Below are positions 29,894 through 36,774 of a stretch of DNA of 64,000 nt, piece by piece. The notes under the pieces were generated by a model that saw nothing but the letters and a program-made list of their open reading frames with translations, did no database searches and was not told where the DNA came from. Each line of letters opens with the position of its first letter. Position 1 is the stretch's first letter. The stretch comes from Chloroflexota bacterium. Its GTDB lineage: Bacteria; Chloroflexota; Dehalococcoidia; Lucifugimonadales; Lucifugimonadaceae. The stretch spans positions 75,211 through 139,210 of the forward strand of contig PBKW01000011.1 of assembly GCA_002721615.1 (NCBI GenBank). The letters are read 5' to 3'. A program made the position numbers and the translations under genes.

Positions 29894-31081
29894 TTATAAG
29901 ATATTAATTTTTCCTTTGTTAACATTAAATAATTTTGAATATTTTAGGTTTGGTTGATCTAATAATTTTCTATCTGGAACAGTAATTAACACTTGATCAT
30001 AATTATTAATTAATTCTAAAACTAATCTTCTCCTATTCGAATCCATTTCTGACATAACATCATCTAAAATAATTACAGGATCACTTTCCTTAATTTCACT
30101 GATAATTTCTGCTTCTGCTAACTTTAAGGCTAATACTATAGATCTTATTTGGCCTCTAGAAGCATAATTAGAAATATTAAAACCTGACAATTTTATATCT
30201 AAGTCATCCCTATGAGGGCCAACTAATGAAGTTCCAAGTTTTAATTCATCATTCTTTTTTCTCTCGATAGATTCGAAAATCAGTTTTTCATAATCACTTT
30301 TTGATATTAATTGATTTTTTAAATCTATATCATTTGGATATCTCAAATTAGGATGATATATTATTTCTAATTTTTCATTTTCTATAGATAGTTGATCATA
30401 TAAAATATTTGTTCGATAAAATAAATTATGTATAATTTTGTGTCTAGAATACATAATCATACTTCCATCTTCAATCAATTTATCCGTCCAAAATTTCAAT
30501 TCATTATAACTAGAATTTTTTAAAGAAATATTCTTCAAAATTCTATTCCGATTTTTTATCACCTGATTATATCTTTGAAGAGCTTTTAAGTACTGGATAT
30601 CAGTTTGTGAAATAAGGATATCTAAAAATCTCCTTCTTAATATAGGAGATCCAAAAATTAACATTAAATCATTAGCTTCAAACATCACAACATTAAAAAC
30701 ACCAACAAAAGAATTTAAAGAAACTTTAGCTCCATTTATTTTTAAAATTTTTTTATACTTATATGATTTGTAATCATTCATATTAGAATCTAAATTTTTT
30801 GTATCTGGTTTTAATTCAAACTCTATATTGAACAAAATTGGACCATCTGATCCTATAGCCTTGATGGAGCAATTATCGCCTGAATTAATTTCATAATTAA
30901 CTAATTCTTGATCAATAGATGATCTTGATGTTTTCCCGATAGCTAGTAAATATATACTTTCAACAAAATTACTTTTCCCTTGACCATTAGAACCATAAAT
31001 AATATTTAAACCTGGAGCTAAGTCAATAGAAGTATCAATATGATTTCTAAAGTTTTTCAGAGAAATTTTAGAAAGTAGAAT
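29894..31081 (-). CDS. recF: DNA replication and repair protein RecF, probable AUU start codon
   Basis: Track ORF starts at an internal TTG (30835). Extending the same frame gives [I/M]LLSKISLKNFRNHIDTSIDLAPGLNIIYGSNGQGKSNFVESIYLLAIGKTSR..., including Walker A (GSNGQGKSN); 395 codons plus stop. ATT at 31081-31079 is preceded by TAA AAA and by GGAG 7 nt upstream. C-terminal PVIILDDVMSEMDSNRR is RecF-type Walker B. Confidence 0.9.
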   Translation of the reverse strand: MLLSKISLKNFRNHIDTSIDLAPGLNIIYGSNGQGKSNFVESIYLLAIGKTSRSSIDQELVNYEINSGDNCSIKAIGSDGPILFNIEFELKPDTKNLDSNMNDYKSYKYKKILKINGAKVSLNSFVGVFNVVMFEANDLMLIFGSPILRRRFLDILISQTDIQYLKALQRYNQVIKNRNRILKNISLKNSSYNELKFWTDKLIEDGSMIMYSRHKIIHNLFYRTNILYDQLSIENEKLEIIYHPNLRYPNDIDLKNQLISKSDYEKLIFESIERKKNDELKLGTSLVGPHRDDLDIKLSGFNISNYASRGQIRSIVLALKLAEAEIISEIKESDPVIILDDVMSEMDSNRRRLVLELINNYDQVLITVPDRKLLDQPNLKYSKLFNVNKGKINIL

Positions 31082-31107
31082 TTTTTATCTCCAATTTGAC
31101 TATAATT

Positions 31108-34364: not shown

Positions 34365-35681
34365 ATGTTGAACGAAGATATAAAAAACATACTCCCAATG
34401 ACTTCTCAAGTTAATGATGAAGGTATCTTAGAAATTGGAGGATGTAACTTAGAGGAAATTTCAAATTACTACGGTACACCTCTTTACATATATGATGAAA
34501 ATACCATTAGAAACATCTGCAAAGAATTCGTTAATGAATTCAAAGAATCTTACCCTAATTCTCATATTTCTTATTCATCAAAAGCATTTTCTAGTCCATA
34601 TCTTACAAAGATTTTAGAAGAAGAAAATCTAGGCATAGATGTTGTCTCAGGAGGAGAATTATCTGTACTTCAACATTCCAAATTCCCTTCAAATAAAGTT
34701 AATTTTCATGGTAATAACAAATCATATGAAGAACTAAAACAATCTGTAGATTGGAATATAGAAACAATTACATTAGATAGTTTCGATGAAATTTCTTTAT
34801 TAAATAAAATAGCTTCAGAATTATCAAAAAATCAAAAGGTTTTGATCAGAGTATCTCCTAGCGTAGATCCTAAAACTCATATTTTGACTACTACTGGAAC
34901 GCTAGACTCTAAATTCGGATTTCCTATTGAAACAGGACAAGCCGAAGAAGCAATCAAATTAACTACAAAAATGTCTAACCTAGATTTACAAGGAATTCAT
35001 TTTCATCTTGGTTCTCCTATTTTTGAAACAGAACCTTATGTGTTGGCAATAAATTACGTATTAGAATTTGCTCATCAACAGAGAAAGAATGGTTTAAACT
35101 TAAAAATTTTTAACCCTGGTGGAGGCTTTGCAGTTTCTTACACATCAATGGATAAAACTCCTCCTACTGTTAAAGAATATGCAAATGCCATATCTGAAAC
35201 CATTATCAAAAAATGTGATGAACTTTCATTGCCTAAGCCACATCTAATTGTAGAACCTGGAAGATCTATAGTAGCAAGATCAGGAGTAGCAATTTATAAA
35301 ATAGGGAGCATAAAAAATATTCCTGGAGTAAGAAAATATGTAAGTATAGATGGAGGAATGGGAGATAATATTAGACCTGCTCTATATCAATCAAAATATT
35401 CTATATTTCATGTAACTAGAATTTTAGAAAAACCTACAGAAAAAGTTACAGTAGTAGGAAAATTTTGTGAATCAGGAGATATTTTATCTAATGAAAGCCT
35501 TCTTCCTAAATTAAAATACGGTGATTTGATTATTTCAGCTACATCTGGGGCATATAATATTGCTATGTCTAGCAATTATAATATGTACTGCAGACCTACT
35601 ATAATAATAGTTAACAATGGAAATCATAAAGTTATTAAAAGAAGAGAAACTCATGAAGATTTACTTTCTCATTTTGTTTAA
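34365..35681 (+). CDS. lysA: Diaminopimelate decarboxylase
   Basis: YGTPLYIYDENTIRN, SYSSKAFSSPYLTKILEEENLGIDVVSGGEL, GIHFHLGSPIFETEPY, FNPGGGFAVSY, VEPGRSIVARSG, CESGDIL. Confidence 0.94.
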   Translation: MLNEDIKNILPMTSQVNDEGILEIGGCNLEEISNYYGTPLYIYDENTIRNICKEFVNEFKESYPNSHISYSSKAFSSPYLTKILEEENLGIDVVSGGELSVLQHSKFPSNKVNFHGNNKSYEELKQSVDWNIETITLDSFDEISLLNKIASELSKNQKVLIRVSPSVDPKTHILTTTGTLDSKFGFPIETGQAEEAIKLTTKMSNLDLQGIHFHLGSPIFETEPYVLAINYVLEFAHQQRKNGLNLKIFNPGGGFAVSYTSMDKTPPTVKEYANAISETIIKKCDELSLPKPHLIVEPGRSIVARSGVAIYKIGSIKNIPGVRKYVSIDGGMGDNIRPALYQSKYSIFHVTRILEKPTEKVTVVGKFCESGDILSNESLLPKLKYGDLIISATSGAYNIAMSSNYNMYCRPTIIIVNNGNHKVIKRRETHEDLLSHFV

Positions 35682-35703
35682 CCTTTTTATTCTGGAGGTT
35701 TAA

Positions 35704-36774
35704 ATTAGTTCTTGGCAAACATTAGGTTATCCTGAAGTAATTAACAGTCTTAAAGAAGTCTGTAAATCTGATTATTTTCCTAATTCAATTATTATTTCTG
35801 GACCAGAAAATTCGGGTAAAACTACTCTAGCGTTAGATATATCCAAGGAAATCAACTGTAAAGGTGAAAAAGGATTAAATGATTGTTCATGTGACCAATG
35901 TAAAAGGATTAATTCTAATAATCACCCTGATGTATTGATTATTAACAAAGAATCAGTTTGCTCAAACCCTAAAAAAAATGATGGAAGAGAATGTTGTGGC
36001 CCAACCACAAAACAAACTGTAATTTCAATATGTGTTGTTAGAGATTTAATATTAGGAAAATCTCAAGTAAAACCTTTCTACGGAAATCACCAAGTTATTA
36101 TCGTAAAAGACTCCCATTTATTAAGAAAAGAATCAATTGATCAATTATTAAAAATTTTAGAAGAAGGATCTCCAAATTTTTTACTAATTATATTAGTGGA
36201 ATCTTTAGACTCCTTACCTTTAACAATCAAATCAAGATGTCAAACTTATAAACTTTTCCCTCTACCTTCTAAAAACATAGAAAATCTATTGGAAATGACA
36301 TATCCAGAAAAAAATGAAGATCTTAGTACAATAGCAAAACTGTCACAAGGCTGTTTTGGAAAAGCTGTAGATATTATTGAAAATCCAATAATCCTCGATT
36401 ATCAAAATCAAACTATAGAAAGAATATTAAGTTTGTTGGGAAAACCTTTATCAAAACAATTAGAATATTCTCAAAAATTATCTGGGCAATATAAAAAAAA
36501 TAAAGATTCAGTAATAAATGAATTAGATTGCTGGTCAAATTGGTGTAGAGATATTTTAATGATTCAAACAAATCAAAATCATCAAATTATCTACTCTAAA
36601 TATCTTGATGAAACCAAAAAAATTGCTTCCATAATTCCTATTTCCAAAACTCTTAATTTATTAAATTATATTTCCTCTTCAAAAAAAACATTAAATATGA
36701 ATGTAAATCCGTTAATAATTTTTGACATATTTGTAAAGCAAATTCCAAAAAGTATTCAAATAAACCTAAATTAG
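35704..36774 (+). CDS. holB: DNA polymerase III delta' subunit, probable AUU start codon
   Basis: Track ORF starts at an internal TTG (35935). Same frame upstream reads [I/M]SSWQTLGYPEVINSLKEVCKSDYFPNSIIISGPENSGKTTLALDISKEINCKG...CSCDQCKRINSNNHPD, with Walker A and zinc module. ATT at 35704-35706 directly follows an in-frame TAA; GGAGG lies 5 nt upstream. Downstream: VIIVKDSHLLRKESIDQLLKILEEGSPNFLLIILVESLDSLPLTIKSRCQ. Confidence 0.88.
   Translation: MSSWQTLGYPEVINSLKEVCKSDYFPNSIIISGPENSGKTTLALDISKEINCKGEKGLNDCSCDQCKRINSNNHPDVLIINKESVCSNPKKNDGRECCGPTTKQTVISICVVRDLILGKSQVKPFYGNHQVIIVKDSHLLRKESIDQLLKILEEGSPNFLLIILVESLDSLPLTIKSRCQTYKLFPLPSKNIENLLEMTYPEKNEDLSTIAKLSQGCFGKAVDIIENPIILDYQNQTIERILSLLGKPLSKQLEYSQKLSGQYKKNKDSVINELDCWSNWCRDILMIQTNQNHQIIYSKYLDETKKIASIIPISKTLNLLNYISSSKKTLNMNVNPLIIFDIFVKQIPKSIQINLN

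Follow-up and report, generated by a model that had tools for sequence, protein, structure and literature searches.

The infC gene of Escherichia coli, which encodes initiation factor IF3, starts at AUU and is autoregulated by its own product, initiation at this codon being IF3-sensitive. To our knowledge, few non-NTG starts of bacteria besides infC have been characterized. An inefficient AUU start is described for E. coli pcnB (Binns and Masters 2002, as cited in PMC13009471). Starts at AUA in ccpN of Staphylococcus aureus and Bacillus subtilis and at AUU in S. aureus cvfC1 were demonstrated by retapamulin ribosome profiling and reporters; they have extended Shine-Dalgarno (SD) sequences and give ~10% of AUG output (PMC13009471). 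In Streptomyces, sigR starts at GTC and is repressed by IF3, with a demonstrated physiological role (PMC5472188). The pairing of a weak codon with a strong SD thus has precedents (PMC13009471, PMC5472188).

Here we describe a holB gene from a genus of marine Dehalococcoidia (Chloroflexota), predicted to encode the delta-prime subunit of DNA polymerase III, that very probably starts at AUU, a very rare start codon. It lies in a window of 64,000 nucleotides on contig C10 of the draft genome G000 (1.46 Mb in 27 contigs, ~30% GC). A search of the literature found no paper on non-AUG starts of holB or recF, or on start codons in SAR202.

The holB start site in the window

The features of the locus are as follows.

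34365..35681, plus strand: lysA-like upstream gene, its stop 22 nt upstream of the ATT of holB; putatively coupled to holB in translation
35694..35698, plus strand: Shine-Dalgarno sequence GGAGG, 5 nt before ATT; read from the sequence and kept in 7/7 genus members
35701..35703, plus strand: TAA stop, in frame, directly before the start codon; from the sequence and the orthologue starts
35704..35706, plus strand: predicted holB start codon ATT; this codon is ATT or ATC in 7/7 genus members, 0 NTG
35704..36774, plus strand: holB coding sequence (DNA polymerase III delta-prime), 356 codons plus stop; Pfam PF13177, NCBIfam delta-prime models below cut-off
35935..35937, plus strand: first in-frame NTG, a TTG whose use would truncate Walker A and the Cys cluster; from reading the open reading frame

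The SD is separated from ATT by the spacer TTTAA, and ATT is followed by AGT TCT TGG CAA. From there the frame is open to a TAG at 36772-36774, and the TTG at 35935 is codon 78, 77 codons into the gene and past both the P-loop GPENSGKTT and the Cys cluster CKGEKGLNDCSCDQC. The original prediction had described ATT as the first codon after an in-frame TAA with GGAGG 5 nt upstream, which is exact, and its statement that no ATG, GTG or TTG occurs in frame before 35935 was confirmed. It had also recognized a delta-prime N-terminus with Walker A and a Cys cluster, in agreement with the P-loop and with a match of Pfam DNA_pol3_delta2 (PF13177) to HolB residues 10-186 (E 2.9e-31, 109 bits, cut-off 27). 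This N-terminal domain is reached only from the ATT start.

The best NCBIfam models for HolB are delta-prime models, though the protein misses the equivalog cut-offs of TIGR00678 (120.3 vs 180.6 bits) and NF004047 (128.1 vs 282 bits). By its sequence, HolB here is a divergent delta-prime. We use the name holB because of the Pfam domain, one-to-one matches in relatives and the lysA-holB order, and also because a separate dnaX-like gene sits elsewhere in the same genome (G000:C3). The local gene order is taken to be mazG-like, lysA, holB, cmk-like, plsC-like and glmS-like, all names except holB coming from our reading of the translations.

A hairpin masking the holB SD was looked for in G000, and the fold was no better than that of shuffled sequence (z -0.25). 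An inverted repeat, TTTAACCT / AGGTTTAA (window 35676-35706), would in principle allow pairing between the SD and the region around the lysA stop.

Start codons of holB and recF within the genus

Sixty relatives were searched for holB, and starts were read where a full copy was present, giving seven genomes of the same genus including G000. In all seven the corresponding codon is ATT (G000, G007, G003) or ATC (G002, G005, G006, G008), with a conserved Trp three codons further on and with GGAGG or GGGAGG ~5-6 nt upstream. The AU and the base preceding it are invariant; the third position varies between T and C and is G in none of them. The contexts are as follows.

G000 and G007: GGAGGTTTAA-ATT-AGT-TCT-TGG
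G003: GGGAGGCTAATA-ATT-TTT-TTT-TGG
G002: GGAGGAAACA-ATC
G006: GGAGGACACA-ATC
G005: GGGAGGAATA-ATC
G008: GGAGGGAATA-ATC

An ATG at this position in relatives would have spoken against the proposed start; it was found in none of the seven readable same-genus orthologues, which have no NTG at or near the codon. In G005, G008 and G003 an ATA precedes the ATC or ATT, making the exact start codon ambiguous by one there, and in G003 an in-frame upstream ATG lies inside the lysA C-terminus, without an SD. The holB genes read in other genera offer ATG, GTG or TTG candidates. Around gene starts in this genome, ATT, ATC and ATA together make up ~13% of non-NTG codons (2567/19219), and the probability that four divergent holB sequence groups would all carry one of them by chance comes roughly to ~3e-4 when their common ancestry is disregarded.

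Among the relatives compared, G007 is the nearest, with a HolB 89% identical to that of G000. The public record PAOU01000011, which matches G007 in this identity (89%), encodes the same HolB protein from residue 1. Between G000 and G007, the first 77 codons of holB show a dN/dS of 0.21 versus 0.13 for the remainder, indicating purifying selection; the first 25 codons alone hold 1 synonymous and 5 non-synonymous changes, too few for a selection test. The distance from the lysA stop to the holB start is 22, 22, 16, 12 and 12 nt across genus members, or a 1-nt overlap in the form TAATC in two congeners; the frame relation, the stop codon and the gap all vary.

The original prediction had counted two DNA-metabolism genes with AUU starts in the window, and the other one, recF, was also borne out.

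31089..31092, minus strand: recF Shine-Dalgarno sequence GGAG; read from the sequence
31079..31081, minus strand: predicted recF start codon ATT; ATT in 7/8 genus members, the eighth, G003, having ATG at this codon
29894..31081, minus strand: recF coding sequence; NCBIfam TIGR00611 with 284 bits (cut-off 172), residue 3 aligning to profile position 1

The seven genomes with ATT are G000, G007, G002, G005, G006, G008 and G009. The layout resembles that of lysA and holB: the gene upstream of recF ends 7-8 nt ahead of the start codon in six congeners, the distance being 26-27 nt in G000 and G007.

Further candidate starts and a genome-wide scan

From 1.36 Mb of the genome itself and 0.51 Mb of G007 we compared 407 orthologue pairs, and the resulting candidates were checked in relatives. 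Gene smpB (G000:C20:30871, L137:10871) reads ATT in G000 and ATG in G001, G002, G003, G004, G008 and G009. ATT is likewise read in G000 and G007 for folP (G000 C10:210905, L042:10905), which has ATG one codon on in other genus members, and for pyrD (G000 C9:71542 minus, L124:11542). For rph (G000 C11:119109, L129:19109), the ATT of G000 aligns with the ATG of G014 while congeners begin ~ten codons later, and rph probably starts at ATT in G000. A gene which we take from its translation to be ino1 (inositol-phosphate-synthase-like; G000:C10:231785-232933, minus) reads ATG in G000, whereas G007 reads ATT at that codon and has its next NTG 37 codons inside. Only from ATT are the starts of the NCBIfam profiles reached, with residue 1 of SmpB at position 2, residue 2 of RNase PH at position 1 and residue 3 of RecF at position 1. 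These genes support the suggestion that the lineage tolerates AUU, and they span folate, pyrimidine, tRNA processing and ribosome rescue, not DNA metabolism alone, which bears on the further suggestion that AUU may serve to hold low-abundance replication and repair proteins at a low level. In the same orthologue comparison a handful of genes have TTG or GTG in place of ATG at an unchanged start position; as read from these alignments, exchange between ATG and ATT is rare, yet not of another order.

A scan of the genome gave no such support. A naive search of the 1.36 Mb for an SD followed by ATH without a good NTG returned chiefly noise, and when each codon was scored in turn in the same way, ATT was not in excess over control codons (ATT 13 genes, 10 per 1000 candidate codons; TTT 16 genes, 16 per 1000). 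Because of this result, we restrict the wider claim to the homology-anchored cases, ~half a percent of genes.

Several other genes were flagged as candidates (rsmD, an amidase, an MFS transporter and an ABC ATPase) and are not counted as non-NTG cases. The ABC transporter ATPase (G000:C6:6893, L087:6893) reads GGAGG AATT CTG with no nearby NTG, a possible CTG start. The rsmD-like gene (G000:C10:47292, L034:7292) has no NTG for 28 codons and no clear SD, as in G007, and its N-terminus seems degenerate or frameshifted. In two other genera pyrD is without a well-placed NTG (G015 L255, G013 L264; ATC-ATC and AGGAGAAA ATA ACG), ambiguous sites that we do not claim. Finally, prfB was flagged and set aside, as it resembles the usual RF2 frameshift arrangement.

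Possible reasons for the non-AUG start codon and comparison with known systems

One explanation dispenses with ATT initiation altogether, placing the HolB start at the internal TTG or having the frame entered by read-through or frameshift from lysA. The TTG is the first in-frame NTG and lysA ends 22 nt upstream, but initiation at TTG would delete Walker A and the Cys cluster from a stretch under purifying selection, and an SD stands directly before ATT or ATC in all genus members read. Read-through or frameshifting is not a conserved option and is very unlikely because lysA-holB frames, stops and gaps differ between congeners; we give this explanation as a whole hardly any weight. Conversion of an ATG to ATT by an assembly or sequencing error might be suspected in a draft of 27 contigs. 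The same codon reads ATT or ATC in seven separate genome assemblies, which effectively excludes it. Genuine AUU or AUC initiation of holB, with help from the strong SD and from translational coupling with lysA, is therefore left as very probable from the comparative evidence.

Granted AUU or AUC initiation, two reasons for the codon appear about equally likely, namely tolerated AT-biased drift and lowered or IF3-controlled expression. The former, in which AUG decays near-neutrally under AT bias, is tolerated through the strong SD and lysA coupling and has no regulatory role, has not quite an even chance in our estimation. ATT is an AT-ward change from ATG in a genome of 30% GC, relatives differ by ATG versus ATT at a shared start codon (smpB, ino1, recF), and the affected genes have no obvious common function. 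However, holB never returns to ATG, TTG or GTG in seven genomes though TTG is common (138/1203 chosen starts in this genome), and the occurrence of both ATT and ATC suggests that a non-NTG codon is kept rather than one frozen base. Alternatively, AUU or AUC may keep holB low or responsive to IF3 as in infC, with holB, recF and a few others forming a small IF3-sensitive set; this is a serious possibility that we place somewhat short of even. Genus-wide conservation with a strong SD (holB, recF), the known repression of non-NTG starts by IF3 (PMC5472188) and the ~10% output in S. aureus (PMC13009471) favor such a set, whereas its functional incoherence speaks against it. Inspection of the infC start (loci L052-L063, L070, L073), also put forward originally, cut both ways, with ATA after AGGAG in several congeners in favor and an apparent TTG in G000 and G007 against.

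The initiation machinery looks conventional. The 16S 3' end, CCTCCTTT in G001 and G002, carries an ordinary anti-SD, and the initiator tRNA of G001, G005 and G009 has a CAU anticodon, three anticodon-stem G:C pairs and a weak 1-72 pair. IF3 is present in G000 and ordinary. A search of the G000 sequence itself found no initiator tRNA, presumably owing to the incompleteness of this assembly. Nothing in these features suggests an altered initiator.

On the basis of these observations, we propose that ribosomes ending lysA would stop 12-22 nt upstream of the holB start, or at the 1-nt TAATC overlap in two congeners, and that GGAGG 5-6 nt before AUU or AUC would hold the 30S subunit at holB. The ordinary initiator tRNA (CAU) would then pair with AU, leaving the third position mismatched, and HolB would begin with fMet; we infer both this N-terminus and the coupling to lysA. 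IF3 would destabilize the mismatched complex, so that initiation would be weaker than at AUG and would rise when IF3 is scarce. Initiation of holB is thus probably weak and IF3-sensitive, and lower output under IF3 control would follow by analogy with infC, sigR, pcnB and cvfC1/ccpN. It is a tentative and rather unlikely extension that ~half to one percent of genes (holB, recF, smpB, folP, pyrD among them) use AUU as a fourth regular start codon, that AUU has come and gone at a given codon among close species, and that a replication, repair and metabolic set is in this way tied to the level of IF3.

A gene finder that accepts only ATG, GTG and TTG would trim 77 residues from holB and 82 from recF, and each would lose its Walker A motif. 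With its several conserved cases and its swaps between ATT and ATG at one codon among relatives, the genus also forms a natural series in which selection for weak starts could be told from mere tolerance of them, and the same series bears on whether the IF3 level controls genes besides its own.

The predicted AUU starts of holB and recF belong to the known class of weak bacterial start codons of the infC, pcnB and ccpN type. What the alignments add is a clamp-loader gene whose non-AUG start is conserved across the genus, accompanied by recF and others. Like E. coli infC, holB is a housekeeping gene with AUU and no usable NTG alternative, and the initiation machinery looks ordinary in the genomes where it was read; whereas infC is autoregulated, the product of holB is a clamp-loader subunit, and IF3, if it acts here, would be acting on a gene other than its own. 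It resembles E. coli pcnB in having AUU outside infC, and ccpN and cvfC1 in combining a conserved non-canonical start with a strong SD. It differs from pcnB in being another gene with a start conserved genus-wide, and from ccpN and cvfC1, whose starts were demonstrated by profiling and reporters, in that its start is predicted from comparative sequence and that replication, repair and metabolic genes are concerned. Finally, holB shares with Streptomyces sigR a conserved non-canonical start outside infC, of a kind misannotated by gene finders; in sigR the codon is GTC and IF3 repression was demonstrated, whereas here the codons are ATT and ATC, as read from the genomes.
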